Below are positions 4,751 through 22,242 of a DNA stretch of 32,608 nucleotides, piece by piece. Under the pieces are notes generated by a model. It was given only the letters and a program-made list of their open reading frames with translations, had not been told where the DNA came from and made no database searches. Source of the stretch: Candidatus Edwardsbacteria bacterium (GTDB taxonomy: Bacteria; Edwardsbacteria; AC1; EtOH8); NCBI GenBank assembly GCA_018821925.1, contig JAHJLF010000046.1:1-32608 (forward strand). Reading direction: 5' to 3'. The number at the start of each line of letters is the position of its first letter. Position 1 is the stretch's first letter. A program made the position numbers and the translations under genes.

Positions 4751-5395
4751 TTATTTCTTCACCTTGGCCCAGTCGTCGTTGAATTTCTTGATCCCGATGT
4801 CGGTCAGGGGATGCTGGGCCAGCATCTTCAGCACGTTGAAGGGCACCGTAGCGATATGGGCCCCTATCTTGGCGCAGTCCAGCACATGGAGAGGCGTCCG
4901 GATGCTGGCCGCCAGCACCTGGGCAGGCAAATCATAATTGTCATAGATATGGACGATCTCCTCGATCAGCCCCATGCCATACTCCGAGACATCATCCAGC
5001 CGGCCCACGAACGGGCTGATGAAGGTGGCCCCGGCCTTGGCCGCCAGCAGGGCCTGGTTGGCCGAGAACACCAGGGTGATATGGGTCTTGATGCCTTTTT
5101 TCGACAGCTCTTTGACCGCCTTGAGCCCCTCCAGGGTCATCGGTATCTTGACGGCCACATTGGGGTGGATCTTGATCAGCGGCTCGGCCTCCTTCAGCAT
5201 GCCGGGTGCATCGGGGCTTAAGACCTCGGCCGAAACAGGCCCGTCCACTATGGCGCAGATCTCCTTTACCACCTGGGCGAAATCGCGCCCCTCCTTGGCG
5301 ATCAGGCTGGGGTTGGTGGTCACCCCGTCGATGATCCCCCAGCTGGCGGCCTCTTTGATCTCGGATACATTGGCGGTATCTATGAACAGCTTCAT
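4751..5395 (-). CDS. Transaldolase / fructose-6-phosphate aldolase-like protein
   Basis: A 214-residue short-form transaldolase. [22 protein letters not shown] and the Schiff-base lysine in NVAVKIPMT (K83) are diagnostic, as is THITLVFS. Short forms include true transaldolases and fructose-6-phosphate aldolases; the adjacent transketolase favours transaldolase activity. It is the first gene of the operon, with AGGAG about 7 nt before the ATG. A consensus sigma70 promoter and then a terminator-type hairpin lie in its leader, which suggests control by premature termination. Confidence 0.94.
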
Positions 5396-5507: not shown

Positions 5508-7196
5508 CTAGAAATCGCTGTCCAGACTGATATGGACTTTCCCCTGTCCCCAACCGTCCCCCCGGCCCAGGCCGTAGACCAGGCTGATCCAGCCCAGGGC
5601 GGTGTCCATCCGGAAGCCGGCCCCGTATCCGGAGCGGTAGCCACGCTGAGACCTTTCGGGATCATAGTAATAGCCCAGATCGTAGAACGGAAAAAGCTCC
5701 AAGCGGCGGTCCGGCGAATAGCGGTATTCCAGGTTGCCCCAGGCCAGCTGATTGGCGATGAACTGCTCCTCCCAGTAGCCCCGCAGGGAAGCGGCCCCGC
5801 CCATGGAGAACTGGTCGGAACGCGGCACCGGCTGCTCGCTGGAGATGACCGCCCTAAAATGCCCTGCCAGCGATATCGACTGCCCGCTGAATATTCCCTG
5901 AACCTGACCGGCATCCAGCTTGACCCGTGAGACGGTCAATTGAACCGAGGGGTCGTAATATCTTTTGCGGCCGTATTCGATCTCTAATTTTGATAAGAAG
6001 CCTCTGGGGCTGAGTGATCCGTCCCGGTAATCGGCCTCCAGGGACCACAGCGAATTGTATTTGATGTTCCGCTTGATAAGCTGGGCCGACCCCGGCACCA
6101 CCCGCACCGCCTCGGCCCCCACCCCGGCGGTGAAATGCTCCCCGGCCGGAAGGTCCGCCATCATTCTGCCCGAGCTTTGGGTATAGGTGGAATCCTCAAT
6201 GCGGTGGCTCACCGCGGCGGTAAGGCCCATGTTCAGGGAAAATATCCAGGGGGTGGAGAACTCGGCCGACAGCCGGCTGTTCTCCTGGCGCAGACGCTGC
6301 CAGCTGATCCTGGCCCGGCGCCCGGCCCCGCCCAGATTGGAAAAGGCCATATCGATGCTGCCGGTCAGCCAGCCGTTCTGCCGGGTCTCATCGCGGTTAT
6401 ATCCCACGGCTCCGAAGATATTATTGTACCGTCCCTCCTCCACAGCGATCAGCAGATTCTCGGATCCCGCCCGATCTCCGGCGGTCAGCATCGGTTCGGA
6501 AACCGACCGGAAAAGCCCGCTCTTGATGAGCCTGGCCCGTCCTTTTTCAATATTCCTTCGGTTGAATGCCACTCCCGGAGCCAGGCCCGATAATCTCAGC
6601 AGAGCCTGATCTTTGGTCTGAACATTGCCGGCAAACCTGATTTGGTCTATGTTTACCCTGGGGCCTTCTTCGATCTGGTAGCTGTAATCCAGCCGGCTGC
6701 CGGACAGGGAGAAGTCACCGACCGCTATTCTGGCATGGGGGAATCCGTTGTCGGCGTAAACCAGCGACAGCGCCGCTATGTCACGCAGTATCTTGCCTTC
6801 CGAAAGCGTTCCCTTTGGCCGGGCAGAAAGCAGGCCCGCCAGATAACTTTGGCCCAGATAGTTGTTGCCGGTGATTATTATATTTCCAGCGCTGGGAATG
6901 ATGCCGTTGGTTATTTTCACTTTGGCCTCGGTGCTGTCGGGCGAATACTCCAGTTCCAGTTCAGCCAGAAAACATCCGGCCCTGTTCAATTCTCCCAGCA
7001 GCCTATTCAGCCCCGCCGGCAGGCCTTCCGAAGACAGGCCTGTTTCCGGCCGGAAACCGATGATGGCATTCATCTGCTTTGTGCTGAACGGAGACTGCCC
7101 GTCATAATCCATTCGACCGACCTTAGCCGGCTGAGCCGCCGAAACTAAAGCCAGCAGGATGGCCGCCGTCAGGATGTGTGTTCTCTTTTTAAAAAT
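5508..7196 (-). CDS. Omp85/BamA-like outer-membrane protein, probable ATT start
   Basis: A 562-residue Omp85-family protein: about three POTRA-like repeats (roughly residues 35-255, for example GNIIITGNNYLGQSYLAGLL and IDQIRFAGNVQTKDQAL) and a C-terminal barrel of about 310 residues ending in phenylalanine. It probably inserts or moves proteins at the outer membrane. The first ATG (7112) would delete the signal peptide. The frame remains open 28 codons upstream, encoding KKRTHILTAAILLALVSAAQ, a clear signal sequence, back to an ATT at 7196 preceded by GGAGG at 9 nt spacing. No ATG, GTG or TTG exists in that extension, so ATT is the inferred start. It overlaps the SprA-like gene by 8 nt. The barrel is shorter than in classical BamA. 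Confidence 0.88.
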   Translation of the reverse strand: MFKKRTHILTAAILLALVSAAQPAKVGRMDYDGQSPFSTKQMNAIIGFRPETGLSSEGLPAGLNRLLGELNRAGCFLAELELEYSPDSTEAKVKITNGIIPSAGNIIITGNNYLGQSYLAGLLSARPKGTLSEGKILRDIAALSLVYADNGFPHARIAVGDFSLSGSRLDYSYQIEEGPRVNIDQIRFAGNVQTKDQALLRLSGLAPGVAFNRRNIEKGRARLIKSGLFRSVSEPMLTAGDRAGSENLLIAVEEGRYNNIFGAVGYNRDETRQNGWLTGSIDMAFSNLGGAGRRARISWQRLRQENSRLSAEFSTPWIFSLNMGLTAAVSHRIEDSTYTQSSGRMMADLPAGEHFTAGVGAEAVRVVPGSAQLIKRNIKYNSLWSLEADYRDGSLSPRGFLSKLEIEYGRKRYYDPSVQLTVSRVKLDAGQVQGIFSGQSISLAGHFRAVISSEQPVPRSDQFSMGGAASLRGYWEEQFIANQLAWGNLEYRYSPDRRLELFPFYDLGYYYDPERSQRGYRSGYGAGFRMDTALGWISLVYGLGRGDGWGQGKVHISLDSDF

Positions 7197-10100
7197 ATGC
7201 CCTTACCTCCATCCTTCCGTTGTGAGCGGTCTTTTTACCGTCCTCTTTCCGTCCGTCATAAGAAGACGATATGGTGAAATAGTTGTTTATGCGGTAATCG
7301 TATGTTGCCCGCCAGGTCTTGGTCCAATCCAGGGGGCGGGTGTAGCGGAACTCCAGGGGAATGTTCTCCAAAGGCTGATCGGCTTTCCGGTGGATCACCC
7401 CAGCCTCAGCCTTAAGCTGTCCGGAGAGAGACAGCTTCCGGGACAGGCCGGGGGACAAGGACCAGTGCTGAAAATTCGTGACCGGCACCGGCAGGTTATA
7501 TCGCTGGATCCTCTCCCTTCCGGCCTCCAGCTTGGCGTTCAGATCAAGCTGCCGGCTTAGGCTATATAATATATCAGTTCCCAGAACATCAGGCCGGGCG
7601 CTGCTTTCCAGGCCGATCAGGTCGTTGTAGGTTTCCGATATGTTCGATGACAAATATAACGACAGCCTGGTCCTGGCATCCAGAGGATACCCTAGCTCGG
7701 CTTTTCGCTCGTTGCTACGGCGCACCGTGGCGGTGGACAGGGTCTGGTTGTCGCGATCCCGGCGCCAGCGGTACAGCAGCCTGGCGTTCCAGCCGCCCCC
7801 GGCATAATAGCCGACATCCCCCGAAAGATCCATCGATCCGGAAATATCCTGGGGATGGCTTTCCAGCGAGGGCAGGGTGGCCAGCAGGGCGGGGTTTAAT
7901 TTTCTCAGGGATTTTATTGCCGAAAGAGCCGCCAGATCCAGCCGGAAGCCGGTCCACCAGGCCGGAGAAAAATACTGTCCCGGGTTGAACTGCAGATAGC
8001 TTCTGGCCGAGATCTCGCTGGCCCGGCTGGACGGCCCCTCCTCCAGTATCTGCTTAAGGTAGTTGCCGGCGGTGTCGGGATAGTAGGCCCCGGAAAGCGA
8101 GTCGTAGCTGTAATCCCCGGCCCTGTCCGGCACCTTGACATACACTTCCTTTAAGAGACGAGCCTCGGTGGCATTGAGGCTGTAATCCAATCCGGTTCGG
8201 AGGGATTGCTGCCAGGCGGAGTAGTCCACCCTCAGCAGCCCCAGATTGCTTTTCTGATCCTGCCCTGAGGAATTGGGCCGGATGGCCTTGCTGCGATAGG
8301 TGTGGTCCAGGCTCAAGGCCAGCGATCCCCCGGCATCGTACTTCATAAAACTACTGACCTGGTCGGTATGGCTGGCTCCCTGCCATATCTGCTCCAGGCT
8401 GTCGCGCAACAGGTCCTCGCGCCGGGAATAGCGGCTGCCCCAGTTAAGTTTGTTGGGGCGGCAGGCAAATCCCAGAAAACCCTCCATTATCCGGCCTCCC
8501 GAAGAGGCCCCGCTGTGATAATAATTATCATCCAGAGTATTGCTGGCCCCGGCCTGATAGGTAACTTTACCTTGGGATATTTCCGCCTCTGTCCGGTGTT
8601 CCTGCCGTCCGGCCGAAGACAGCAGGCTGTCGATCCAGGCCCGGCCCAGCAGGGTCTTACGGTAATTGTAGGAGACGGTCAGGGCCGGCCAAGGCTTGAA
8701 GCTGGAGGACCCCTGGTACTTGCGCAGCCACAACCCATCCCTGAGATTGAGCCGCCCCCAGCCTCCGCCGACCTTAAGATATCCGGCCGGCCAGTAGCCG
8801 GCCTTATATTCCTGGGAACGCTGCCCCTCCATGGGATCATGCCTTTTGAGGCCGGTCCAGCCCCCCAGCCCCCAGCGGCTCTCGAAATCGCCCTCGGCAA
8901 GGCCCAGCTCCGAACGGAAATCGCTGCCATACGATATGCCCCGGCCGGACACTTCGAAGCCGCCCCAGTCCAGGGTGTCCCGGCGCCAGAGCAGATCATA
9001 CTTGCCGCCGTCGCCGGCATTATCGCCGTCATCCAGCGATGACAGGGTGTTCAGATCCTTCCAGGTCCTGGCCCCGTTGACAGCCAGCCGGCCGCCTCCC
9101 CAAAGGGTTTTTAACTGCAGGCCCAGCGACCGGAATTCTTCCGGACGGGGATATCTTTTCAGGGCCGCGTATTCTCCTTTCCCCGCACCGGCATATACAA
9201 AAGCCCCCAAGACACTGTCATAAACGTAATCACCTTTCCCCGAGCCCATCCAGGTAAAGGATACGGCATATCGGCCCAAACCCCTTCCGGCATATAAGTA
9301 GACGGAGTCCGGTTTATCGTAGTCGCCGTTGCCGCTGTCGGCCAGAGACCCTCCGTCGCCCCAAAGTTTTGTGGTGTCGTCCCCGGCCTCTTCCAGCACC
9401 GATCTCCATACATCGTTCATCTCCCCGGCTGACGGCTGTTTGGGATCATCGGATTCCTGGTAATAGGCGCTGCTTATCAGCAGGTTCTTTCCGGCATACA
9501 GGTCGTTGCTGACAAAATACAGGTTCCGGGAAAAGCTCTCCAGTGAATATTCGAACTCGGCGGTGATCCTGGAATCGTCGGTGATCATCCGGCGCGGGGT
9601 GAACAATATCTGGCCCTTATCATAGTCTATGGTATAGTCGCGGTCACTCCCCCGTTGCAGCAGCGTCCCGTCCAGCCAAATCCGGTCGCTGTTGGCCAGC
9701 ACCCGGAAAGCATTGGCCCCTTCCGGAACGGTAAGCTGGTAGGGCCCCTGAACCCCGTCCCGGCCAGAGAAGCGGACATATCCCGGCTTCCCTTTGGCGC
9801 TGGACACCGAAAATCCCAGGGAGTTTGACCGGTAGGAGAAGGCCGCATCCAGCCCCTGCAACTGGCGCTGGACATTAAGCAGTTCCTGGCGGTGATATGA
9901 CAGGTCGTAATCCCCCACCACTGCCGACCAGTTGGAGGAGTTGGCCCGGATGAATATCTTATCTATCTGGCTCAGTTCCTGGGTGCTGCCGCTGACCGGC
10001 ATTCCCTGGTCGGACAGCATGGCGTTGACCTCCAGGTTCTCCCCCAGGCGTCCGTTGACCCTGACGTTCAGGGACTGGTCCAGTGACAGGTCCCTCCCGC

Positions 10101-10569
10101 TGCCCAGGCTTATTCCCACGGATTTGCTGCCGCCGAACCTCAGTTGTCCGTCCCTGGCCTGCAGCCATTGGCTCAGGCTGTCGGATCCGGCCTGCTGGCT
10201 CGAGGCCGGCAAAGAAACCAGTTTAAAAGTATCGGGAAATAATTGCAGATACTGTCTCTGAGGCGGTATCTGCAGAGGCAGGGCCGAAAAATAGATAGTA
10301 AGAGTATCCCCCCAGGCCAGGGGCAATGCCAGATAGATAGTTCCCTGGTTGTAATCAATGGCGTAATCCAGATTGCGCAACAGGCGCCTCTCACCCAGCA
10401 GGACGCTGTCGCTGCCGAGAAAAACGAAGGGCGCCCCCAGCCGGTATTCATTCACAGCGGGGTCGCCTGCGATCATAATGCTTTTCCGGATCGGGGAGAT
10501 GCTCTCCGCTCCAGAATAACCGAACCATAGGCCCAGGGCAATAATTGTTATGGCCACGCTGGTCCGCAT
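7189..10569 (-). CDS. Large SprA-like outer-membrane beta-barrel protein
   Basis: The 1126-residue protein begins at the ATG at 10569, giving a signal peptide (MRTSVAITIIALGLWFGYSG); the open frame extends 39 codons upstream but that part is not protein-like. FGGSKSVGISLG (about 145-156), the SDQGMP...IDKIFIR stretch (about 186-208) and DYTIDYDKGQILFTP (about 311-325) resemble the repeated N-terminal pattern of SprA/Sov, the type IX translocon. The rest is alternating aromatic beta strands with Gly/Asp/Ser turns, ending in phenylalanine, as in an outer-membrane barrel. At about half the length of SprA it may be a shortened translocon or a related large porin. The start follows the lipoprotein stop by 5 nt. 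Confidence 0.75.
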   Translation of the reverse strand: MRTSVAITIIALGLWFGYSGAESISPIRKSIMIAGDPAVNEYRLGAPFVFLGSDSVLLGERRLLRNLDYAIDYNQGTIYLALPLAWGDTLTIYFSALPLQIPPQRQYLQLFPDTFKLVSLPASSQQAGSDSLSQWLQARDGQLRFGGSKSVGISLGSGRDLSLDQSLNVRVNGRLGENLEVNAMLSDQGMPVSGSTQELSQIDKIFIRANSSNWSAVVGDYDLSYHRQELLNVQRQLQGLDAAFSYRSNSLGFSVSSAKGKPGYVRFSGRDGVQGPYQLTVPEGANAFRVLANSDRIWLDGTLLQRGSDRDYTIDYDKGQILFTPRRMITDDSRITAEFEYSLESFSRNLYFVSNDLYAGKNLLISSAYYQESDDPKQPSAGEMNDVWRSVLEEAGDDTTKLWGDGGSLADSGNGDYDKPDSVYLYAGRGLGRYAVSFTWMGSGKGDYVYDSVLGAFVYAGAGKGEYAALKRYPRPEEFRSLGLQLKTLWGGGRLAVNGARTWKDLNTLSSLDDGDNAGDGGKYDLLWRRDTLDWGGFEVSGRGISYGSDFRSELGLAEGDFESRWGLGGWTGLKRHDPMEGQRSQEYKAGYWPAGYLKVGGGWGRLNLRDGLWLRKYQGSSSFKPWPALTVSYNYRKTLLGRAWIDSLLSSAGRQEHRTEAEISQGKVTYQAGASNTLDDNYYHSGASSGGRIMEGFLGFACRPNKLNWGSRYSRREDLLRDSLEQIWQGASHTDQVSSFMKYDAGGSLALSLDHTYRSKAIRPNSSGQDQKSNLGLLRVDYSAWQQSLRTGLDYSLNATEARLLKEVYVKVPDRAGDYSYDSLSGAYYPDTAGNYLKQILEEGPSSRASEISARSYLQFNPGQYFSPAWWTGFRLDLAALSAIKSLRKLNPALLATLPSLESHPQDISGSMDLSGDVGYYAGGGWNARLLYRWRRDRDNQTLSTATVRRSNERKAELGYPLDARTRLSLYLSSNISETYNDLIGLESSARPDVLGTDILYSLSRQLDLNAKLEAGRERIQRYNLPVPVTNFQHWSLSPGLSRKLSLSGQLKAEAGVIHRKADQPLENIPLEFRYTRPLDWTKTWRATYDYRINNYFTISSSYDGRKEDGKKTAHNGRMEVRAYF

Positions 10570-10574
10570 AGCCC

Positions 10575-11432
10575 CTAGAACTTGACAAAGGCCAGATTTC
10601 CATCCTCGGCGACAACTCCGCTGCCGAACGGGCTCAGGGCTACGGCATATGGCTTCTGGAAGGGAACCCCCATCTGTTTGACCCACTGATCCCTTTCATA
10701 AACATACACCCCGACCATCCCCTGTTCCGGCTGGCATATCCACAGCCGTCCCAGGTAATCGAAGCCCACCGCCTGAGGGTGGTTCCCAACCGGTATATGT
10801 ATTGAGCTGTGCCTGGCGCCGTAAAGATTATAGAACATGATTATCCCGCTGCGCGAATCAGCCAGGGCCATAATGTTCCTTGAGACATCAATCGTGATCG
10901 AGCCCGGACGGAACACGCCCCCGCCGGACATCTCGATGCGAAAGCTCCGCAGTTCATATCCTGAGCGGTCAACCACCTTGACCTGGGCATTGATGCCGTC
11001 CAGCAGATAAATGTCACCGGTGATGGTGGCGGCGCCGGTCGAGGCCGAAATGCCGGAAAAGCCCGCTTCGGATAACTGCTGTCCTTTCCGGTCGAAGCAT
11101 TTTATTTTCCGATCCAGGTTATTCAGCAGCCAATAACAATCCGCTCCGCCGGTTATAAGAACATCCCTGGGCCGGGACAGATCTGTACGAAAAAGCTCCG
11201 TTCCGTCCCAGCCGGCCGAGGCCAGAACCCAGCCGGCAGCCTGGGTATAACAGGCATTGCCCGAACGGTCGGCGGCCAGAGAGGAAACTTCCGACAAGAT
11301 CTGGAGGGGATAACGCAATGCGATATCAACCGATCTTTCATTCATCCTGATCGAGGGCCTTGGCGGGTCAATGTAGGCGGTGCAGGAAAGGATCGCCAGG
11401 CTGGAAATCAGCAGATACCTTTTAAACTTCAT
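10575..11432 (-). CDS. Beta-propeller (NHL-like) lipoprotein
   Basis: A 285-residue predicted lipoprotein: MKFKRYLLISSLAILSC has a lipobox (LAILSC, Cys17). The mature part has repeated blade-like units (SSLAADRSGNACY, DVLITGGADCYWL, SITIDVSRNIMALADS, VGFDYLGRLWICQP, VALSPFGSGVVAED), suggesting a six-bladed NHL/SMP-30-like propeller used for binding rather than catalysis. The ATG at 11432 is chosen because it gives the lipoprotein signal; the open frame continues 39 codons upstream through the terminator hairpin and is probably untranslated. It lies 5 nt before the SprA-like gene and could be a lipoprotein partner of it. Confidence 0.8.
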   Translation of the reverse strand: MKFKRYLLISSLAILSCTAYIDPPRPSIRMNERSVDIALRYPLQILSEVSSLAADRSGNACYTQAAGWVLASAGWDGTELFRTDLSRPRDVLITGGADCYWLLNNLDRKIKCFDRKGQQLSEAGFSGISASTGAATITGDIYLLDGINAQVKVVDRSGYELRSFRIEMSGGGVFRPGSITIDVSRNIMALADSRSGIIMFYNLYGARHSSIHIPVGNHPQAVGFDYLGRLWICQPEQGMVGVYVYERDQWVKQMGVPFQKPYAVALSPFGSGVVAEDGNLAFVKF

Positions 11433-11512: not shown

Positions 11513-12325
11513 TTAAAAACTTTTTCCCAGAGCCACCCCGATATCGCAATTGCGGGTGGTTAGGAACTTAAGCTGCCAGCTCTCCTCAAGCTCCGCCCTC
11601 TTCAGCCGGTTCTTGTTGTATCGCTTGGTCAATCGGGCGGCATTGACCGCTGAAAGAAGGTGGTTTAAAATGGCCGCCCCGTAAGAATAGCTTATCCGGT
11701 GCAAAGATTCCTGGCTCTTGACCCTCAAGCCCCGGTATTGATACCAATCAGTTTGCGTCTGCCAGGCCCAGTCATCGGGGGACCCGTATAGCAGTCCGGT
11801 CACATAGGTCTCCTGAGCCTGGGGGTCATCGGGGTAGATCATCCGGGCCTCGGCCCAGATGTCCTCGTTGTACCAGTAACTGCTGGGGTATTCGTAGATA
11901 TTCTGGTAGTAGATATCCTCGGTCTGTTCCGGGTTGGCCCCGGCCTGCTGGGCGGCAAAATTGCGGTAATCCCGCTTCCACATCTCCCCCTGAAATTTGG
12001 AAAAGGCGGCGAATGACCAGATCATGGCCTCGGCCCCCAGAAAAGCCTTGGCCTGGGTCTTGGCCCCGGCGTAATACTCGCCGGCTCCCGGAAGGATCAG
12101 AGACATGAAGAAAGCCTTTTTAAGGGATTTTTTCGGGACTCTTATTTTTTCAGTTTTGGTGTTAGAATCCACCGGAAGGGATACGGCTGAAGGCGTGATC
12201 TCATCCACATTGATGTGAGTGCTATCAGCGCTGGGTCCCTTTTCTTCCACCGCGCTTTCCACCGCCAACAGGCTGCCGGATAGAAATGCCGCCATCATAA
12301 ATGTATAGATAAAATACTTAATCAT
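11513..12325 (-). CDS. DUF5683-like envelope protein
   Basis: A 270-residue protein with signal peptide MIKYFIYTFMMAAFLSGSLLA, a low-complexity linker, and a conserved-looking segment AFFMSLILPGAGEYYAGAKTQAKAF (about residues 70-95) typical of DUF5683-type proteins common in the FCB group. Hydrophobic stretches around 73-108 suggest membrane association, and the C-terminus ends in phenylalanine. Function is unknown. It overlaps the M6 protease stop by 4 nt (ATGA), so the two are translationally coupled, and it is followed by a terminator hairpin. Confidence 0.78.
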   Translation of the reverse strand: MIKYFIYTFMMAAFLSGSLLAVESAVEEKGPSADSTHINVDEITPSAVSLPVDSNTKTEKIRVPKKSLKKAFFMSLILPGAGEYYAGAKTQAKAFLGAEAMIWSFAAFSKFQGEMWKRDYRNFAAQQAGANPEQTEDIYYQNIYEYPSSYWYNEDIWAEARMIYPDDPQAQETYVTGLLYGSPDDWAWQTQTDWYQYRGLRVKSQESLHRISYSYGAAILNHLLSAVNAARLTKRYNKNRLKRAELEESWQLKFLTTRNCDIGVALGKSF

Positions 12326-15300
12326 CTTATCACCGCCGCTTTCAATATCTGGTATTGGGTATCGTTAGTGGATACAGCCTCCAGCCGGATCAAGTAGACC
12401 CCGAAGGCCAGGTTGCCAAGCTGCCATAATATTTCGTTCTCTGTTCCGGCAAATCCCGGCTGGCTGAAATCCTGGACCAGGTCGCCGGCCAGGTTGAAAA
12501 CTTTTATATTCACGTTGGCTTGAGTGTTCAAGGAGAATCGTATTTTGGCGGAATTCCCCCGGGCCGGATTGGGATACACATAAGCATTGGCCAGCAGTTT
12601 ATCCGAACTCTTCAGCGGATGCTGGGAAAGATCCCAATTCAAATATCCGGAGTTGGCCTGGTCGTTATGGAACCCGGTCCAGTGGCTGGTCCTGCTGGAA
12701 AAAGCTGACGGAAGGCTCCAGACATACAGCCTTCCGTCATCGCAGCCGATGGCCAGTTCGGTGCCGGTGGTATCTCCGTCCAGATCAAACGCCAACGGTG
12801 TGGAATAGGTACGGCCACCGATGGTCAAAGGGAAGCCGGCCGCATCGGTGCCGTCATTGTTGAAGGCCATCAACGAGTTGTCCGGGGAGCCGATCACGAT
12901 CTCCGGCAGGCGGTCCCCGTCCACATCGGCCATTATCGGAGAGGACTGCACTAATTGCGATGCCGAAACAACCACCGGGAATCCCTCCACCAGGGTGCCG
13001 TTGTAGTTGTAGACGTGAAGTTTATTGTCCACCGCCAAGGCGATCTCCAGATATCCGTCCCCGTCAATATCGCCCAGGGCCGGAGAAGACAGGGCGATCC
13101 CACTATAGCTTACCGGCCAGCCCTTCAAAAGCTTACCGGCCTTATCTATCACATAGATGCCCTTGTTGGTACAGCATACGATCTCCGGATTTCCGTCCCG
13201 GTCAATATCGCCTACCGCCGGCGAGGAGCTGACCACATCGGCCCAGGGTTGCAATGCCGGGAATCCCGCCACCAACTCTCCATTCCCTTTAAAAACGAAC
13301 ACCCGGCTGTCGCCGGAAAGAACGATGATCTCCTTCCCCGGCGACGAGGCATCCAATTCGGCCAAAGCCGGAGTGGAGCGGGTTTCCATTTTCAGATCAT
13401 AGGGAAAGCCCGATAGAATATTCCCTTGATGGTCCCAAACATGCAATTTCATATCCTCGCCGGCCGCAATCACCTCCATGGTGTCATCGCCGGTGACATC
13501 GCCCAGAGTCACTGAGGAATATATGGGCCCGGTAACATTGACCGGAAATCCTGACATTAGCGTGGCGTGGTAGATAACGTAAGGGTTTCCATTGTCCGAA
13601 AGCACCGTGTCCGGCTGGGGGATCAGGCTGAACCCGGATATCTGCCCCTCGGTCATGGAATAAGACGAGGTAATGAATACCTCCTGCACCCCGTCCAGAT
13701 TTATATCGGCCACCGCCGGCGAGGAATATATATAACTGCCGTCCTTGACCCGGGCGATCTCGGCCCGGACCTGGACCGTGTCGTTGCCCGCCAGCACCAA
13801 AACCGTATCCCGGTTGAACAACCCGGAGCCGTCAGCCTTCCAGGCATACAATCTGCCCAACACACCGGCAACCAACACCGCTTTATAGGATGAATCGGTG
13901 CCGGGATACATTGTTATATAATTAACGCTGTTCCAGTCCACCGTATCCCCCAGCACTGCCGGGAAGCCCGGCACCGCCCAGCCCACCTTCACCCGGGCTT
14001 TCATGGTATCCCCCGGAAGTGAGATGTTATAGATGGAGATATGGGTGGACGAGCCGTCGTTGGCCAGAGTGGCTGGGTTGCTGGCGTCATCCAGCCGGTC
14101 GTTATTGCCCCTGAAATAGGCATCGTAGGGGCTGGCGATGGTGGAATACGGCGAGCTGACCCAGTGCCGCAGATCCTGGATATGGTCGGCCTCCAGCATA
14201 TAGATGGCCTTGACATTGCCGGTCATCAGGCTGTTATCATCCCAGCGCTGTCGGATCAAGTCTTCATCCACATGATAAACCAGAAGACCCCCTTTGTTCA
14301 GGTCGAAGGGCAACGACATGTCGTAATCGTCAACCTTCACCAGCACCCCGTTGCGCCAGGTCCGCACCGCACTGTGATCCGAACCGTAGCCGTAGATCAG
14401 GGAATCGGAAAAATCTACAGCATCGTCGGGGTTGGCCCAGGCCCGGCGGTTCTCTATCAGATAATATTCGTGGGAATTGATCGGGATCTTGACGATGGCT
14501 TTGGGATCCTTGGCCACCCAGGCGAAAACCTGTTCGAAGTCGTCCCCCGGCTTAAGCTCTATGGGTTCGGCCCAGCCCAGAAATACCTTGCACCAGGCCG
14601 AAAGATGCGGCGGGACATAGGCGTTCATGTTGAATGAGCCCCAGGACATCAACTCCCACTCCCCCAGCCCGGCCGACTCGTAGGTGTAATCATAAAGGTC
14701 GGGCAGTCCCAGCTGGTGGCCGAATTCGTGGGCAAACTCCCCCTGGGAGCCCAGCACCATGCCGTCCTGGCTCTGGGTGGCGGCGTCCAGGATCCCATCG
14801 TAGATGGTATCGGCCCCGGCATTGGCGATCAGCGGCTGGTCGCCCAAAGAGATGAACACCGAGGGGATATCGGCCCCCCAAGGATCGGTCTGCCAGCAGG
14901 AGCCGGCATGAACGATCATAAATGATTGATAATCACGGAAGGATATATTCAGCGGGTCGTTATCTGCCGCGGCTATGGCATCCCTGAATAGGAAATACAG
15001 TCCGGCTCCCCAGTTGTCCCAGTTATTATAGAAGTCGCTGTAGAAAGACATCTGGTGCGGCAGGGTATAGTCGGCGGTATCTCCCTTGGGAAACTGCTCG
15101 AACTCAATATAGAGTTTTCCATAGGAGACCGCCCAGTAGTAGTTGTGCATGGCCAGCATCTGGTTATGGATATAGGTGCTGTCGTGAGGCGGCTCGTAAT
15201 ACAGGTTGTGCCCCTGGGCCGGATCGTTGTTGGTGTAGATCGGCTCCCCGTTGCCGGCATAGTCAAAATGCCCGTTGCCGGTGGTGTTGATGTCGCTATC

Positions 15301-15576
15301 CAGCTGGAACTGGGCTTTGATCACCAGCACCCGGATGGTGTCGGGAGTGGCTGCCTTGATGCCTTTTTTTACCTTGGCGGCCCGGATCCCTCCCAGGATA
15401 TTGCGGGTGGAAACGGCGTCCCGGTAGCCCTTGGGCTGCTGTTTTATCTGTTCGGCAATGGACATGGAACTTTTCCAGGTCGCCTTCAAATTCTTCAGAT
15501 CATCGCCGTGCAATCTGCTAGCAAGCAATACTGTAATGGCCACCAATCCGATCATATTATTAAATGATAACCTCAA
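12322..15576 (-). CDS. Secreted M6 family metalloprotease with FG-GAP repeats and T9SS-like C-terminal domain
   Basis: A 1084-residue secreted zinc protease. After a signal peptide, the M6 domain carries HEFGHQLGLPD (H283, E284, H287, D293) and a met-turn in ELMSWGSFN (M310), with the M6-typical EYYLIENRRAW near 370. Seven FG-GAP/VCBS-like units (such as SSPALGDIDGDGYLEI) fill about residues 616-948 and probably form a calcium-binding propeller. The last 85 residues (YVYPNPARG...VFNLAGDLVQ...KAAVIR) are a FlgD-Ig/type IX sorting-like domain. The start is TTG at 15576, supported by GGGGGAGG 5-6 nt upstream. It is the likely cargo of the PorU/PorV-like pair encoded just upstream. Confidence 0.93.
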   Translation of the reverse strand: MRLSFNNMIGLVAITVLLASRLHGDDLKNLKATWKSSMSIAEQIKQQPKGYRDAVSTRNILGGIRAAKVKKGIKAATPDTIRVLVIKAQFQLDSDINTTGNGHFDYAGNGEPIYTNNDPAQGHNLYYEPPHDSTYIHNQMLAMHNYYWAVSYGKLYIEFEQFPKGDTADYTLPHQMSFYSDFYNNWDNWGAGLYFLFRDAIAAADNDPLNISFRDYQSFMIVHAGSCWQTDPWGADIPSVFISLGDQPLIANAGADTIYDGILDAATQSQDGMVLGSQGEFAHEFGHQLGLPDLYDYTYESAGLGEWELMSWGSFNMNAYVPPHLSAWCKVFLGWAEPIELKPGDDFEQVFAWVAKDPKAIVKIPINSHEYYLIENRRAWANPDDAVDFSDSLIYGYGSDHSAVRTWRNGVLVKVDDYDMSLPFDLNKGGLLVYHVDEDLIRQRWDDNSLMTGNVKAIYMLEADHIQDLRHWVSSPYSTIASPYDAYFRGNNDRLDDASNPATLANDGSSTHISIYNISLPGDTMKARVKVGWAVPGFPAVLGDTVDWNSVNYITMYPGTDSSYKAVLVAGVLGRLYAWKADGSGLFNRDTVLVLAGNDTVQVRAEIARVKDGSYIYSSPAVADINLDGVQEVFITSSYSMTEGQISGFSLIPQPDTVLSDNGNPYVIYHATLMSGFPVNVTGPIYSSVTLGDVTGDDTMEVIAAGEDMKLHVWDHQGNILSGFPYDLKMETRSTPALAELDASSPGKEIIVLSGDSRVFVFKGNGELVAGFPALQPWADVVSSSPAVGDIDRDGNPEIVCCTNKGIYVIDKAGKLLKGWPVSYSGIALSSPALGDIDGDGYLEIALAVDNKLHVYNYNGTLVEGFPVVVSASQLVQSSPIMADVDGDRLPEIVIGSPDNSLMAFNNDGTDAAGFPLTIGGRTYSTPLAFDLDGDTTGTELAIGCDDGRLYVWSLPSAFSSRTSHWTGFHNDQANSGYLNWDLSQHPLKSSDKLLANAYVYPNPARGNSAKIRFSLNTQANVNIKVFNLAGDLVQDFSQPGFAGTENEILWQLGNLAFGVYLIRLEAVSTNDTQYQILKAAVIR

Positions 15577-15610: not shown

Positions 15611-18085
15611 TTAAAATACTGCCGACAGCGAGAATTTTTTGTTGAAATTCTGCAGATCGCCGCCCGGCTCCATGGCAAAGTCAAATTGTATCTTGCGGAA
15701 TCCCACCCCGGCACCGTAGGTGGGGCCTTTGATGTGCCCAACTTCGTCCAACACATATCCGGCCCGCAGGGCCAGGCTGGCCGGGCCCAGATACCAGTAT
15801 TCCATTCCCAGGTGGTGGACCACATCCTGGAGCTCCTCCTTCCATGGGCGGTCTGGTGAAAGGTCAACGATGGTCTTGGTGAAATCCCAGGCAGCGGTCA
15901 TCTTGGAATACTTGCCGTCCAGGATATCGTAAGCGGTGCCAACCCTGACGTTGCGGGACAGTGGATCGGCCTCCTGGGCATCGATATAGGTAAGTTTGGG
16001 GCCGATGTTCTGGACATTCAGGCCCAGGGCCAGGCCCTCAAACGGCCCGCGATAAAGCAGGCCCAGGTCCACCGCCCAGGTGGTGGCGATCCCTTTTCCC
16101 TGCTCGCCCGGAGCCCCAAAGGGTGCCAGATGCGAGTAGATCAGCTTCAGGTTGATGCCTCCGGCCAGGTTGCTGTATATTTTGTTGGCATAGGTAAGAG
16201 TGGGCGAGAATTCATAGCTGGAGAAGGTCCCCAGCACCTGTTCATTCTCATCTATCCGCTGGTTGGTCCCTTCCGAAAGAAAGACCACGTTCCCGCCGAA
16301 AACCCCCCAATCCTTTACCGGCTGGGCATAGGCGATGAACTCATAATACATATCCCCCACATCGCTCCAGATCTCGGAAAGCCAAGGGGAATGCATCATG
16401 GTGGCGTAATGCGGAGTGGGCTCAATTATTCTTTTCAGTGAACCGGGCATGGCCGATTCCAGCAGCTTCCGGTTCAATGCGGTAAGATCTTCAATGCTCA
16501 GGTACTCGATCCCCTCCTGGATGTAGCCGATGGCCGCCGGATCCAGGTTTTCATTTTTAAAATATTCGGCTTTATATAAAGCCCGGTTGGCCAGCAGCTG
16601 GTTCAGCCCTCCCAACAACGATTCCTTGTCCTCCCGGCTGACAGCCTTGTTGGTCCGATATTTGTCGCAAATGACCCTGAATTCCGGAGCCAGCAGACTT
16701 CTGATATGCATTTGGGACGAGGCCTGTATTTTTTTCTGGTATGAGGCCAGATCAGACGGGAACAGGCTTTCCATGGCCGTCCGTTTTGCTTTGAGCGCCG
16801 GCAGATTATCCTTCTGACCGGCTTCACCGGTTTCATAGCCGTTGATGACCGCGTTCAGGAATTCAAGAACGCCGGTCTCCTCCTCCGGGGTCATTGCCTC
16901 CTGGCCGTGATATTTCTTCAAGGATTCCCAGCCCGGCTCGTTCATCTTATCGAGGAAATACAAAGAGAGCGAGTCGTTTTTGACCCTGTCATCGTAGGGC
17001 TTGATCGAGGAAGGCAGATAAGCCTCCCATAAAAGCCGGTTCAATTTCAGCCCGTTCTGCTCCCCTATCTTCTGATAATCGACCGTCAGGGATATCTGTC
17101 GGGGACAGGCGGCCTCCAATAGTTGCATATTGAACAAAGCCAGTGCTTCACCTTTGAGGCTGGCCGCTGATTTTTCTTTCAGGGCATCAGATAACACTAC
17201 GTTAGCTAATCTGGCAGATTGGTAAATTCTCCCCTTGATTATTTTGCTAAATTCCACAGCCAGAACAGTGGCCGCCGAATCAGCTGGTAAACCGCTTTTC
17301 AGAACGGTCCTGCTGCGTGAAGCAAATCTGCCCCACAGATATCTGGACAGGGGATCATCGGCTGCCGCCAGTTTCTGTACCAGGGCTTCAGGGTTTAAAA
17401 AATCTCCGGCGGTAAATTCTTTGCTGTCCCGGTCGTATTTGCCGGATTGCACAAGGGTCTTGGCCGATGGCGGTATTTCAATGCCGTCCAATGCCGACTG
17501 GCGGCAGATGGCGGAGCCCGCCGACAGGTTCCGGTTGATGCTGTGCAATATCGCCCATTTATCCTGCAGGGTCATCATGCTGTCGGACTTGAGAATGGCG
17601 GCCCGGGCGGTGCTGTCCAGCCACCCGGATATCAGCCGGTATGCCCGGCTGTCTCTGGTGGAATCAACCAGCAATTCGCGAAACTTGTTCCAATTCGTAA
17701 TATCCGCCACAGTCAGCATGGGCGATTGCCTGGCATTCAGGATGATGGAGGCGGGATCAAGCAGGTCCTGTTGCTGGAATAGATAGAAAGCATCCTTATC
17801 CTGCAGGTTGGACACCAAAACCGCCCAATCCTTGATATCGTCCTCCTGGAAATACTGGACCACATCCGGCATCAAAAATGCCAGCCCGGCCGGGTTGAAA
17901 TAGGTAGCGGTGGCATCATCGGAGATGGCGGCGAAGGCGCTGCCCATGCCGCTGGGCCTGGCCCCGGGACGGATCAAAAGGAAGATGGCCCCGCCCTCGG
18001 ATATGGCGTAAGCCGTGCCGGATGCCAAAGCGATGAGCATCACGGCCAGCAGCATAATGATCCTGGATGGTCTTTTAAACAACAT
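15611..18085 (-). CDS. PorV-like outer-membrane protein with a large internal insertion
   Basis: An 824-residue protein with signal peptide (cleavage near ASGTAYA). Residues 34-72 (FLLIRPGARPSGMGSAFAAI...ATYFNPAGLAF) match the opening of PorV/PorQ-type barrels, and the typical continuation resumes at MMHSPWLSEIWSD (about 563) through YEFSPTLTYANKIY, GINLKLIYSHLAP and WAVDLGLLYRG to a terminal phenylalanine. Between them, about residues 75-558 are a helix-rich segment with no recognised domain. PorV is the outer-membrane protein that hands T9SS cargo to PorU. Usual relatives are about 350-400 residues, so this one is roughly twice normal size. AGGGGAG precedes the ATG. It begins 34 nt after the C25 peptidase stop. 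Confidence 0.85.
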   Translation of the reverse strand: MLFKRPSRIIMLLAVMLIALASGTAYAISEGGAIFLLIRPGARPSGMGSAFAAISDDATATYFNPAGLAFLMPDVVQYFQEDDIKDWAVLVSNLQDKDAFYLFQQQDLLDPASIILNARQSPMLTVADITNWNKFRELLVDSTRDSRAYRLISGWLDSTARAAILKSDSMMTLQDKWAILHSINRNLSAGSAICRQSALDGIEIPPSAKTLVQSGKYDRDSKEFTAGDFLNPEALVQKLAAADDPLSRYLWGRFASRSRTVLKSGLPADSAATVLAVEFSKIIKGRIYQSARLANVVLSDALKEKSAASLKGEALALFNMQLLEAACPRQISLTVDYQKIGEQNGLKLNRLLWEAYLPSSIKPYDDRVKNDSLSLYFLDKMNEPGWESLKKYHGQEAMTPEEETGVLEFLNAVINGYETGEAGQKDNLPALKAKRTAMESLFPSDLASYQKKIQASSQMHIRSLLAPEFRVICDKYRTNKAVSREDKESLLGGLNQLLANRALYKAEYFKNENLDPAAIGYIQEGIEYLSIEDLTALNRKLLESAMPGSLKRIIEPTPHYATMMHSPWLSEIWSDVGDMYYEFIAYAQPVKDWGVFGGNVVFLSEGTNQRIDENEQVLGTFSSYEFSPTLTYANKIYSNLAGGINLKLIYSHLAPFGAPGEQGKGIATTWAVDLGLLYRGPFEGLALGLNVQNIGPKLTYIDAQEADPLSRNVRVGTAYDILDGKYSKMTAAWDFTKTIVDLSPDRPWKEELQDVVHHLGMEYWYLGPASLALRAGYVLDEVGHIKGPTYGAGVGFRKIQFDFAMEPGGDLQNFNKKFSLSAVF

Positions 18086-18119: not shown

Positions 18120-21100
18120 TTAACGCATTATCACTAATTTTCCGAACCCGGAATTTTCCAGGCCGTCATCCCGGGCGGTTACTTTATAGAGATACACCCC
18201 GTTGGCCGGGATGCTTCCCTTGTCATCCCTTCCGTTCCAATACACCTGGTTATAACCGGCATTCAGGCTGTTGGCTAGGATCTCCCGGATCAGGTTCCCG
18301 GCCACGGTGAATATTCTGATGGCCACATCGCCCGGCTGGGAAAGCATGAAGGTGAAATAGGTGTCATCCTTTAATGGATTGGGGAAATTGTAGATCGAGG
18401 ACACCTTCAGATCGGTCTCCACATTGACCGCATTTTCCCACAGCCCTTTCCTCAGTCTGGTATCATAGGCTTCCACCCTGACGGTATACTTGCCGCTGGA
18501 TGAAAAATTATAGGCATAATCCGCCGCGCCGGATGTCAGGGTGTCGTTGGAAAGGCTGTAGATAAAATCCTTGGCGATATCGGTGGAGACCAGTTGTTTT
18601 CCATCTTTTATAATGGTGAATTTTATCTCGCCGTATTTGGAGACGCCGGGGGCAATGTTAATGCCGCTTCGGTCTGATATCTCCACCCGGAATTTGGACT
18701 GGCTGGGCAGGTAATCGTCCTGCTTTAAGGCCAGCCCCCCGGCGTATACTGCTATCTTCGGAGCGGATGTATCCTGATAAGTGGTATCGGGATCCGGATC
18801 TATCCCGCCGATCCAGATGGTGTCGGCGGTAACTCCGGCGGCATCCACCGATGAATTCCAGGCATAGGCCCGGACCTTGGCCCCCGAAACCGGACCGATA
18901 TGGAGCTGGTCGGGTATATTGACGATCATTTGAAAGCTGTCATTGGCTACCGGGAATTCCCCCCGAAAAATAATATTCCCGGGAAGCAGATAGTTAAAAT
19001 CAGTATTTAAGTGGGGGATATCCCTCAGTTCCAGCATTACCCTGCCCGAGAAATTACTGGAAGCTTCCACCACTCCGCTTATATTGTAACGCCCCTGATT
19101 GTAAAGGGTGTCGGAACTTATGATGATATCAATTGGGTTCTGGGGCTGGCTGAATTTTATTCCGGGGTCGCCCAGCAGGGTGTAACACTGGTTATTGGAT
19201 GGATTGTTGCTGGCTATCTTGGCGACCCACACCGACCGCCCCATATCCAGGAGAGAATCAAACAAAGAGCTATACAGATTATAGTTCAGATTATTATTGG
19301 CTGTCCCATAACCCTCTCTGGTGCTGCCAAAGGAGGCTATGGCCCCGCCGGAGGCTTTGGTGACCACCAGGGAATTGATGCACTTATAATAAGGATTGTC
19401 AAAACGGGAGACGCCGCAGGAAGCAGTTATTACCAGGGGTAATTTACTGCCGTTGGCCAGGTACGACACATCGGTATCACGGAAATACCATTCATGGCCC
19501 CAGGTCCACCAGGCCCCATGCCCCACGAAATTCACGATCCCTGCTCCCCCGTTCCAATATTTTATCAGGTCTGACCTGGCACCCGGCTTGTGATGGTTGC
19601 TATCCAGGTCGTACTGAACACCGTAAACCTTTTCGGCAATATAACATCCAGGTGTTTTATAATACAAATTCTCTGCAGCATTCATATGGGTGGAGCCGTC
19701 GGGTGTAAGATCATCAGCCACCAATATCGTCTGGGACCTCCAGGATGCTAGGGTTTTGGGCGAATCGTAGTTTATGGTTTTGTTAACCACCGACCAAGCC
19801 TCCTCGCTATTGGCCGCCGGCAGGCGGGCGATGGAGAATTGGGGATACAGGCCGGTGGTAAAATAGGCATACCAGTCATCATAAGAATGGAATTGATATT
19901 CTTCCAGGACAAAATTCAACCTATCCTCCTGGTGGGTCGGCACAAGGTTGGTATTAGCTATAGAACGATCAATGTGCCGGTAGTCATAATTGCCATTTCC
20001 GAAAAGGACACACCAGACCGGGCTGGTGCCGCCGGAATTCGTATAAATATATTTAAGAAAATTACGGATGGCCGCCGGGTCGTTTACCCCGAACCCGAAT
20101 TCGTTGTTTATCCAGGATAGTTTTACCGCCCGGGCCGGCTGCTTCTCAGGGTTTCCCACATGATGAGCCAATAGGACCTGAGCTTGGGCCCAAAGCTGGT
20201 CGGCCACGATCATCAGATATTTGACGTCGGCGCACAATTCCCTTAAGCGGTTTGGATTATACGCCTCCATCCTGGCCGGTTTAAACCAAGCCGAAGGAGC
20301 GGCGGCAAAATACCTGTTGCCCCTTTTCCAACCGTCATCGAACCGGACATAGGCCGGATATGTATTTGATGACAAAAGATGGTTAGGGGCTTCAGGGTTT
20401 GAGATATCCAATAAAAGACAGGTGTCGGAATTGAGCCCGGTCAGGTAGAATCGATTAACAATTTGGCCCGTTGAATCAGCTCTAAATTTCAACGCCCCCT
20501 TGTATGCTTGGTATTTATGGTAATATATGATTTCCACCCAATTCAAATAGATCGCATCAATGCTGTCGGCGTTTTCCTTGATAAGTTCCACATTCAAGAT
20601 GTTGCTTGCGGTTGATAGATTCGCAACTAATAAGCTATCAGTTATCTCATATTGTGACAGCAACTCCGGACCACCAGTCCAAAACAGTTCTTTTGCAGCA
20701 ATGCCGTTCAAACCCCATTTAATCCTATGTTTGGAATTGATCCCGGCATGAACGGTTAAATAAACATTTGCCTGGCTGTTGGCCGGATAAGGAACATTGA
20801 TCTCGTAATTATATCTTTTAGAGCTTTCCGAGGAAGCCCTCCTCATATTCGCCCAATAGTAGAATTCTCCCGAGTTGAAGGGATTGAACTTGTCCTGTTC
20901 AAAATGCAGGGTATCGGTGAACGACTGTAACGGCTGCAGGTTTTCCGGGCTTGGTTCACAATTCCTGGCCGGCATCCGCCGGCCGTTGTCGCCGCCCCAG
21001 GTCAGCCAGTAACAATTGGTGTCGGCGTATGGATTAAAGAATTGCGGGGTTGTTAATTTTGAGTTCTTATCCCAGCCGGAAAGATCCTGCCCGTAGAATA

Positions 21101-22031
21101 TTATATGATCGCCCTGGTCGAACCGGCCGTCCTCCTGCCCCTTGATCCATATTGCTATCTGCTTCATGGTATCCGGCACCACGATATTTCGGTCCTTGGG
21201 AAGGGCCGCCGAGCCGCCGGAGAAGATCTTGATGGTCCGGGGATCGATGACCGCCGGATCAATTCCGTTGCGCAGCAGATAATCATAATCCAGGCGGTAG
21301 ATGCCCTCCTGCAACACCGACAATTTATACCATACGGAATGCCCGTCAAACGGGTCGACCGCTTTTGCTTTGGAGGTTTTTTCAGAAACCTTCCAATTGC
21401 GGCACTGGGGGTAATTGACCAGCAGTTTTGAGAACACCGGGGCAAAAGCCGGATCCGGCCGGGAATCGTTCTCTCGCCCGGCGATATCCCAGCTGACCTG
21501 GACCGTTATTCTTTTGTTCAGCCTTAATACGCCCGCTAAAGGGTCGTATTGGACCGGAATCATCTTCACTCCGGCGATATTATACTGCCGCAGCCTTTCT
21601 ACCGATGCCAGGCTGGCAATTGTCCCGGGCAGCATACCCGCCTTGCCATAGTGTGAAGGATTCTTAGCATACCTGTATGAGCCCAAGCCGGGCTGCTCCG
21701 ATGATACCAGTGCGGGGATCGGTGCCAGGAGAAAATTGCGGATATCCTCCGATTCAACCGTCAATATCTGCACCTTGACCCGGACTCCCTCCGGAACACC
21801 CAGGCTAAACGAGGACTCCAAGGTTGCAGGCGCGCCGGGCTGCCCTGCCGCCTGGCAACCGGGCAGAAACACGGTCTGCTCACCATCGGCATTGGTCTTG
21901 AACTCCGGCTGTTCCATGGTGTATTCGATGACGGCGGAGAATGCATCGGCCGAAACCAACCGGGTCTCCGCATTGAGCAAACCGCAGGCCGCTATCATTA
22001 GGATCAGGCTATATGTGATCTTTTTTGTCAT
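18120..22031 (-). CDS. C25 (gingipain-like) cysteine peptidase, PorU-like
   Basis: A 1303-residue exported peptidase. The catalytic region has GIVNFVGHGAWWTW (His838) and LPLVITASCGVSRFDNP (Cys872), then GGAIASFGSTREGY and NNNLNYNL, the pattern of PorU-type C25 enzymes. An N-terminal propeptide-like region precedes it. The C-terminus (IYNFPNPLKDD...IFTVAGNLIRE...GVYLYKVTA...KLVIMR) is a FlgD-like/T9SS sorting-like domain. PorU removes sorting domains from secreted cargo and attaches it to the surface, and porU-porV adjacency is known from Bacteroidota. I chose the ATG at 22031, which gives signal peptide MTKKITYSLILMIAACGLLN; a GTG at 22178 opens 49 unlikely codons. IAAC within the signal could be a lipobox. 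Confidence 0.9.
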   Translation of the reverse strand: MTKKITYSLILMIAACGLLNAETRLVSADAFSAVIEYTMEQPEFKTNADGEQTVFLPGCQAAGQPGAPATLESSFSLGVPEGVRVKVQILTVESEDIRNFLLAPIPALVSSEQPGLGSYRYAKNPSHYGKAGMLPGTIASLASVERLRQYNIAGVKMIPVQYDPLAGVLRLNKRITVQVSWDIAGRENDSRPDPAFAPVFSKLLVNYPQCRNWKVSEKTSKAKAVDPFDGHSVWYKLSVLQEGIYRLDYDYLLRNGIDPAVIDPRTIKIFSGGSAALPKDRNIVVPDTMKQIAIWIKGQEDGRFDQGDHIIFYGQDLSGWDKNSKLTTPQFFNPYADTNCYWLTWGGDNGRRMPARNCEPSPENLQPLQSFTDTLHFEQDKFNPFNSGEFYYWANMRRASSESSKRYNYEINVPYPANSQANVYLTVHAGINSKHRIKWGLNGIAAKELFWTGGPELLSQYEITDSLLVANLSTASNILNVELIKENADSIDAIYLNWVEIIYYHKYQAYKGALKFRADSTGQIVNRFYLTGLNSDTCLLLDISNPEAPNHLLSSNTYPAYVRFDDGWKRGNRYFAAAPSAWFKPARMEAYNPNRLRELCADVKYLMIVADQLWAQAQVLLAHHVGNPEKQPARAVKLSWINNEFGFGVNDPAAIRNFLKYIYTNSGGTSPVWCVLFGNGNYDYRHIDRSIANTNLVPTHQEDRLNFVLEEYQFHSYDDWYAYFTTGLYPQFSIARLPAANSEEAWSVVNKTINYDSPKTLASWRSQTILVADDLTPDGSTHMNAAENLYYKTPGCYIAEKVYGVQYDLDSNHHKPGARSDLIKYWNGGAGIVNFVGHGAWWTWGHEWYFRDTDVSYLANGSKLPLVITASCGVSRFDNPYYKCINSLVVTKASGGAIASFGSTREGYGTANNNLNYNLYSSLFDSLLDMGRSVWVAKIASNNPSNNQCYTLLGDPGIKFSQPQNPIDIIISSDTLYNQGRYNISGVVEASSNFSGRVMLELRDIPHLNTDFNYLLPGNIIFRGEFPVANDSFQMIVNIPDQLHIGPVSGAKVRAYAWNSSVDAAGVTADTIWIGGIDPDPDTTYQDTSAPKIAVYAGGLALKQDDYLPSQSKFRVEISDRSGINIAPGVSKYGEIKFTIIKDGKQLVSTDIAKDFIYSLSNDTLTSGAADYAYNFSSSGKYTVRVEAYDTRLRKGLWENAVNVETDLKVSSIYNFPNPLKDDTYFTFMLSQPGDVAIRIFTVAGNLIREILANSLNAGYNQVYWNGRDDKGSIPANGVYLYKVTARDDGLENSGFGKLVIMR

Positions 22032-22040
22032 ACTTTTAAT

Positions 22041-22075
22041 AATAATAAAAACCGGTATCCCGTTAAGAGACCCGG
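22041..22075 (-). terminator. Terminator-like hairpin in the C25 peptidase leader
   Basis: On the minus strand CCGGGTCTC, a 5-nt loop (TTAAC) and GGGATACCGG form a stem with one bulged A, followed by TTTTTATTATTATT. It ends about 10 nt before the chosen ATG. It may act as an attenuator; if translation began at the GTG at 22178, it would be coding. Confidence 0.45.
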
Positions 22076-22242
22076 CTTTTGTGGAGTTAAGATAACAGTA
22101 AAAGCCAGTGTCGTTTAAATATTTATATGCCGAGACGTGATATTTATCAACTTTACGTTGGCAAATACCCCCAAGCACTAAAAATTTAAACCAGGGTCAC
22201 TGACTTTAAGATCCTTATAAAAGCTCCGTTTAATTTACATTA

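Follow-up and report, generated by a model that had tools for sequence, protein, structure and literature searches.

The window analysed here, the whole 32,608-nucleotide stretch of a contig of Candidatus Edwardsbacteria bacterium (the source genome assembly has 2.44 Mb in 95 contigs and is 99.4% complete), contains an open frame at 7189-10569 on the minus strand that runs from ATG 10569 to TAA 7189 and encodes a protein of 1126 aa; coding on the plus strand of this interval is ruled out by many stops. A sequence-only reading of this DNA had described a 1126-residue frame at this position, and this is correct, with the minus strand as the coding strand. The motifs FGGSKSV, SDQGMP and DYDKGQILFTP, which it had likened to SprA, are all found in the translation. 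The gene is predicted to encode a short SprA-like outer-membrane barrel, based on the open frame and the results from TIGR04189, AlphaFold2, Foldseek and hhalign described below. The protein starts with a putative signal peptide (approximately residues 1-22, 10504..10569; seen by eye and as a predicted helix 2-20 in DSSP), followed by a small N-terminal beta domain (approximately residues 27-96, 10282..10491) that matches positions 595-635 of the SprA profile and columns 616-676 of a SprA alignment. The predicted barrel region comprises residues 143-1126 (7192..10143; AlphaFold2/DSSP), has about 40 strands and ends C-terminally in RAYF. It includes the QGPY / DYTIDYDKGQILFTPRR segment (residues 268-345, 9535..9768), which lies within the block of strongest SprA similarity, and an insert (residues 380-477, 9139..9432) between the predicted strands 11 and 12 (AlphaFold2/DSSP); all these features are on the minus strand.

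The neighbouring genes are on the minus strand too. Directly upstream of the barrel gene lies a gene for a propeller/NHL-like lipoprotein (10575..11432; a lipobox-like SLAILSC was recognised by eye), followed by a gene for a DUF5683-like protein (11513..12325; below the Pfam cut-off), and both are conserved neighbours. Further upstream are genes for an M6-like metalloprotease family protein with a T9SS sorting tail (12322..15576; family matches), a PorV/PorQ family protein (15611..18085; NF033709, 193.7 bits, cut-off 90) and the T9SS sortase PorU (18120..22178; NF033707, 608 bits, cut-off 420). The M6-like protein (12322-15576) resembles an NCBIfam family that is described as inactivated, T9SS-dependent metalloproteases. 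The order in Edwardsbacteria is PorU-PorV-M6-DUF5683-propeller-short barrel-Omp85, and it is largely kept in the Eisenbacteria loci L075, L078 and L079 and in L041, and partly in the Zixibacteria locus L077: in the first four loci, profiles made from the Edwardsbacteria genes detect PorU, PorV, M6 or DUF5683 genes on the upstream side of the barrel gene, and in L077 they detect DUF5683 and propeller genes. The type A T9SS sorting tail is matched 63 times in the source genome, which suggests that its T9SS is probably active.

The kinship with SprA is detectable at profile level. The window protein matches the NCBIfam SprA profile TIGR04189 with E=1.2e-10 and 39.3 bits, below the equivalog cut-off of 200 bits, and the profile is matched by ten of 17 members of the short SprA-like family. 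Pfam searches, including SprA_N (PF14349), returned no SprA match for any of these 17 proteins even with E values as high as 1 allowed, and PDB sequence searches with the single protein or with a 17-row profile found neither SprA nor anything relevant. When an 82-sequence alignment of the short family was compared with 24 SprA proteins by hhalign, three blocks were found that are collinear between short family and SprA: a main block (family columns 268-514 to SprA 600-865, 96%, E 2.8e-9), a weaker block (family columns 141-406 to SprA 147-529, 63%) and a C-terminal block joining the C-terminal regions of both (24%). Family columns 49-107 also match SprA 616-676 with 84%, by the same small module as the main block. 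Controls (reversed SprA; the Omp85 partner, PorV-like and M6 families) reached at most 1.1%, and the SprA resemblance proposed in the sequence-only reading is thus above chance. Masking the two beta modules lowers the highest hhalign value to 26%, and for this reason homology can be argued from sequence alone mainly for the N-terminal half. By these profile comparisons the short barrel qualifies as a member of the wider SprA superfamily, with the likeness strongest in the N-terminal half. Matches to Pfam DUF2460 and to an NCBIfam phage-tail family (8/17 members each) stay below the cut-offs and are read as a shared beta module, because SprA itself also weakly matches TIGR02217; a PHROGs search gave no match. 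The protein is also not a truncated, broken or split SprA: the source genome has a full, canonical SprA as a separate gene (contig C1, 1889 aa, 351 bits to TIGR04189, above the cut-off), which is also the sole PF14349 match in this genome, and the length of the short family is similar across phyla.

AlphaFold2 predicts a very large barrel. The model of the window protein (82-row alignment) has a mean pLDDT of 83.1 and a pTM of 0.71, and a model of the Pedobacter arcticus orthologue (53 Bacteroidota rows, zero Edwardsbacteria rows) has a pLDDT of 83.9 and a pTM of 0.71; the two are partly dependent, as nearly all rows of the second alignment are also in the first. Foldseek against the PDB ranks the SprA entries 8gl8, 8gl6, 6h3i and 6h3j at positions 1, 2, 3 and 5 for the window model (E 1.7e-12 to 5.8e-9), and positions 1-4 are all SprA entries for the P. 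arcticus model, with low TM-scores (0.21-0.27 by query) and, for the window model, a large rmsd. VIA-align superposes the window model on 8gl6_A over 718 residues (Z 15.5, rmsd 9.3; model 142-1126 on SprA 136-2401) and the P. arcticus model over 689 residues (Z 16.2, rmsd 8.4); the alignment covers the whole barrel in both models, and sequence identity in the structure alignments with SprA is 7-13%. Porins, AlgE and FimD have VIA Z values equal to or above that of SprA over about 230-370 aligned residues, and for the window model several porins and FimD reach Z up to 17.7 over about 240-350 residues. These matches to porins, FimD, AlgE and SlpA were set aside as generic barrel likeness, with far fewer residues aligned.

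Strands picked by hand from DSSP number 40 in each model, some of them short; 11 of them precede and 29 follow an insert of roughly 100 residues. Counting mechanically every run of at least 7 gives 43 for the window model, strands of the small domain included. SprA has 36 strands, and its folded inserts lie between strands 7 and 8 and between strands 11 and 12, according to passages of PMC9127263. At the place of the SprA cap insert, after strand 11, both models of the short barrel also have a predicted insert. As possible cap material the short barrel has only the roughly 100 residues of this insert and some 65 residues ahead of it, less than a cap as large as that of SprA would need; the membrane side of these residues was assigned from strand parity. 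From the two models and the Foldseek ranking, the protein is predicted to be a giant single-chain SprA-type barrel, presumably closed. The very large barrel with SprA-type fold had been proposed from sequence, with structure prediction and a strand count as the suggested check, and the predictions bear it out: about 40 strands in each of two models, with SprA as the best PDB match.

Downstream of the barrel gene lies a BamA-like Omp85 gene with POTRA and Omp85 barrel domains (5508..7196, minus strand), whose start is uncertain (ATG 7112 or ATT 7194-7196) and which is one of six Omp85-family loci of the source genome. The protein passes the Pfam cut-offs for both domains, with 67.2 bits where 21.3 are required and 54.7 bits where 24 are required, and shares both with BamA/Omp85 (TIGR03303, PF01103), but it reaches only 98.1 bits with TIGR03303, under the equivalog cut-off of 297, and covers profile positions 224-719, without the part that matches the first 223; in sequence it looks like a BamA minus the first POTRA domains. 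The sequence-only reading had claimed an overlap of the two genes, and this depends on the locus. In the window, the first in-frame ATG (7112) is 77 nt past the barrel stop, the signal-peptide codons ahead of it reach the barrel stop without any ATG, GTG or TTG, and the nearest possible start upstream is ATT 7194-7196, which overlaps the barrel stop. The sister locus L027 has an ATG at the upstream start position; the sisters L026 and L028, like the window, have no ATG, GTG or TTG there, and the rare start codon ATT may be used in these three loci. In five other loci (L030, L032, L035, L041, L077) barrel stop and Omp85 start overlap as TGATG, and these overlaps point to coupled translation of barrel and Omp85. 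A frameshift joining both frames at a T/A run at the stop was ruled out by the signal-peptide-like codons that open the Omp85 frame.

The Omp85 gene follows the barrel gene directly in 10/10 Edwardsbacteria genomes (the window and eight of nine relatives by gene calls, L032 by tblastn), in all three Eisenbacteria with downstream sequence (a fourth ends at the contig end), in the one Zixibacteria genome and in three of six other testable genomes (two more end at the contig end). In contrast, it is adjacent in 0/54 Bacteroidota, 0/3 Ignavibacteriota and 0/4 Balneolota/Rhodothermota loci, with a further five, two and one loci, respectively, cut by contig ends; in L086 no frame of the family was called. 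Conservation of the gene pair, a further expectation from the sequence, is therefore restricted to some phyla, and the barrel is present in several phyla without an adjacent Omp85, which is thus not generally needed. The proposal of a dedicated assembly factor does not stand as a general rule; for some phyla only, we hypothesise that the Omp85 has this role.

A scan of genome contigs identified 284 relatives, and 80 of these were retained. The kept relatives, of about 1150 aa, are from Edwardsbacteria, Ignavibacteriota, Eisenbacteria, Zixibacteria, Balneolota/Rhodothermota and Bacteroidota; open frames are mostly 1050-1240 aa long, and those checked span nearly the full profile. In a family tree of 46 rows, each named phylum group with at least two rows forms one group, with several deep or long branches uncertain, a pattern as expected of old vertical inheritance. 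Ten out of ten hand-picked carriers of the short family also have SprA. In a set of 61 genomes of relatives, all 18 carriers are within the 23 SprA-bearing genomes; a nineteenth initial carrier (G047) was removed, as what was matched there is part of a fragmentary SprA gene on the same contig. Of 296 Bacteroidota genomes, 191 match the family profile at E up to 1e-3, 174 of them strongly (E <1e-60), and SprA is over the cut-off in 227: 173 genomes have both, one has only the short family, 54 have only SprA and 68 have neither (Fisher p 9e-32 with kinship ignored; the counts are inflated by shared ancestry). The 17 genomes whose sole family match fell between E 1e-4 and 1e-3 were treated as non-carriers; 16 of these carry SprA, and the matches were taken as cross-hits to SprA. 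As 54/227 SprA-bearing Bacteroidota genomes are without the short barrel, the T9SS can work without it. The one genome with only the short family (G338; locus L161, 10719-14207) has the barrel at 1131 bits, no SprA over the cut-off and a single marginal T9SS sorting tail.

In most Bacteroidota loci, T9SS genes were looked for next to the short barrel and none were found. A PorP/SprF-like gene is beside the barrel in nine Bacteroidota loci (9 of the 47 cases listed; three were checked), and these neighbours form one cluster, located downstream of the barrel and mostly in close relatives. In these loci (L087, L129, L113 and six similar ones) the PorP/SprF gene adjoins the barrel, in several followed by a gene for a very long protein. 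Among SprA-bearing Bacteroidota, 104 genomes have both the M6-like family (counted as present at E <1e-100) and the barrel, nine only M6, 69 only the barrel and 45 neither (p 2e-8); the M6-like protein was rejected as the barrel's partner in Bacteroidota, the association being non-exclusive and confounded by kinship. In Pedobacter and relatives (L088, L101, L103), the barrel frame overlaps the end of a sensor-histidine-kinase-like gene of about 1235 aa.

Computation establishes homology to SprA, a predicted giant barrel, a link both to T9SS genes and to genomes that have a T9SS, and a pairing with Omp85 that is confined to certain lineages. The reading that we favour, with moderate confidence, is that of an uncharacterised SprA paralogue that has kept the giant barrel but lacks most of the extracellular cap, and that belongs to the T9SS as one of its outer-membrane parts, working with PorV/PorU beside SprA. 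The short barrel would act with SprA and not replace it, because it is almost never found without SprA, and most likely at the PorV/PorU stage of sorting and attachment, because of the PorU/PorV gene cluster. SprA passes its cargo to PorV, which exits via a lateral opening (as described in passages of PMC10994853), and the attachment complex consists of PorU with PorV, PorQ and PorZ (passages of PMC7463736). The short barrel could for example be a docking barrel that receives PorV-cargo complexes or hands them to PorU, and a SprA-type barrel with little cap would suit either task. The BamA-like Omp85 encoded next to the short barrel in Edwardsbacteria, Eisenbacteria and Zixibacteria probably helps to insert it or stays bound to it; in Bacteroidota the barrel would be built by the general BAM machinery. 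Counted against a T9SS component are the carrier G338 without SprA, the 54 SprA-bearing Bacteroidota without the barrel and the few T9SS neighbours in Bacteroidota. A wider version of this reading, that the T9SS has had a second giant barrel since the FCB ancestor, a SprA paralogue of about 40 strands (more than the 36 of SprA) that is the station between PorV-cargo and PorU and in several phyla has a BamA-like inserter of its own, is tentative at best.

The short barrel may instead conduct proteins independently of SprA, as a second translocon with little cap that has a cargo set of its own and uses PorV/PorQ-type carriers. This is consistent with a predicted barrel that spans the whole SprA barrel in the alignment and with a gene cluster that also encodes PorU, a member of the PorV/PorQ family and the M6 protein with its sorting tail. 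However, such a translocon should also occur without SprA and 173/174 Bacteroidota carriers have SprA, and no equivalent of the large cap, which assists CTD binding in SprA (passages of PMC10994853), was identified in the short barrel; we consider an independent translocon unlikely. A function outside the T9SS, in outer-membrane biogenesis or in the delivery of glycans or LPS anchors, would explain why G338 retains the barrel without SprA, and the co-occurrence with SprA would then reflect the complex outer membranes of FCB bacteria. The adjacent BamA-like Omp85 and the propeller lipoprotein, which we liken to BamB, recall parts of the BAM. Yet the barrel gene sits in a PorU/PorV cluster, its carriers are strongly nested within the SprA-bearing genomes and the Omp85 is not adjacent in Bacteroidota, making this explanation improbable.

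Least probable, and in our view very unlikely, is an unrelated very large porin whose resemblance to SprA comes merely from small beta modules that both contain and from the geometry common to barrels. The low identity to SprA (7-13%), the confinement of similarity to few segments, the 26% left by hhalign once both beta modules are masked, and the porins, AlgE and FimD that match or exceed the VIA Z of SprA (over about 230-370 residues), with TM-scores to SprA of 0.21-0.27, would all fit an unrelated porin, but the similar segments are collinear with SprA while hhalign controls stay at or below 1.1%, SprA is the best Foldseek match of two models with by far the longest alignments, and both models have the insert between strands 11 and 12, as SprA has.

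The closest known system to the short barrel, here read as a SprA paralogue of the T9SS, is SprA/Sov itself (TIGR04189, PF14349; PDB 6h3i, 6h3j, 8gl6, 8gl8): both share the giant outer-membrane barrel (predicted for the short barrel), a C-terminal barrel end, collinear sequence blocks, a small DYxxDYxxGxI beta module and the occurrence alongside T9SS genes. The short barrel differs from SprA in its length of 1126 aa, whereas the SprA of this genome has 1889 aa and that of Bacteroidota about 2400 aa. It also has about 40 predicted instead of 36 reported strands and no recognisable large cap, is under the equivalog cut-off and is encoded by a gene apart from SprA, with a pattern of occurrence of its own in several FCB phyla. 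The FCB-type BAM of Flavobacterium johnsoniae, a BamA-containing outer-membrane insertion machine for which large barrels, SprA among them, are the presumed clients, has the subunits BamA, D, G, H, M and P, and in the passages of PMC12611786 no subunit is described as a SprA-like barrel. Neither these passages nor the T9SS component list in the corresponding part of PMC7463736 name such a protein, and the papers found by searching the open-access PMC literature (subscription papers and preprints are outside this scope) do not describe the short SprA-like family in their titles or abstracts.

Many FCB bacteria rely on the T9SS to deliver proteases, adhesins, other surface proteins and the machinery for gliding, yet the components of the system are known largely from two model species; a conserved SprA paralogue present in 173/227 SprA-bearing Bacteroidota of our sample and in candidate phyla, where its gene accompanies those for PorU and PorV, would be a missing T9SS component. 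It would possibly be among the largest single-chain barrels known, and it would be a test case for the insertion of giant barrels, because only some phyla pair it with an Omp85.

The canonical SprA gene of the source genome stands apart from the PorU/PorV cluster, and on its contig (locus L046, contig C1; 7104-12773, 3-6627) it adjoins several genes that are like the GspE/PilB-type ATPase gene of the window (28058-29848). In the window, a transketolase is seemingly split into two separate halves (497-1495 and 3926-4747, minus strand), with a transaldolase-like gene at 4751-5395, both recognised by eye.
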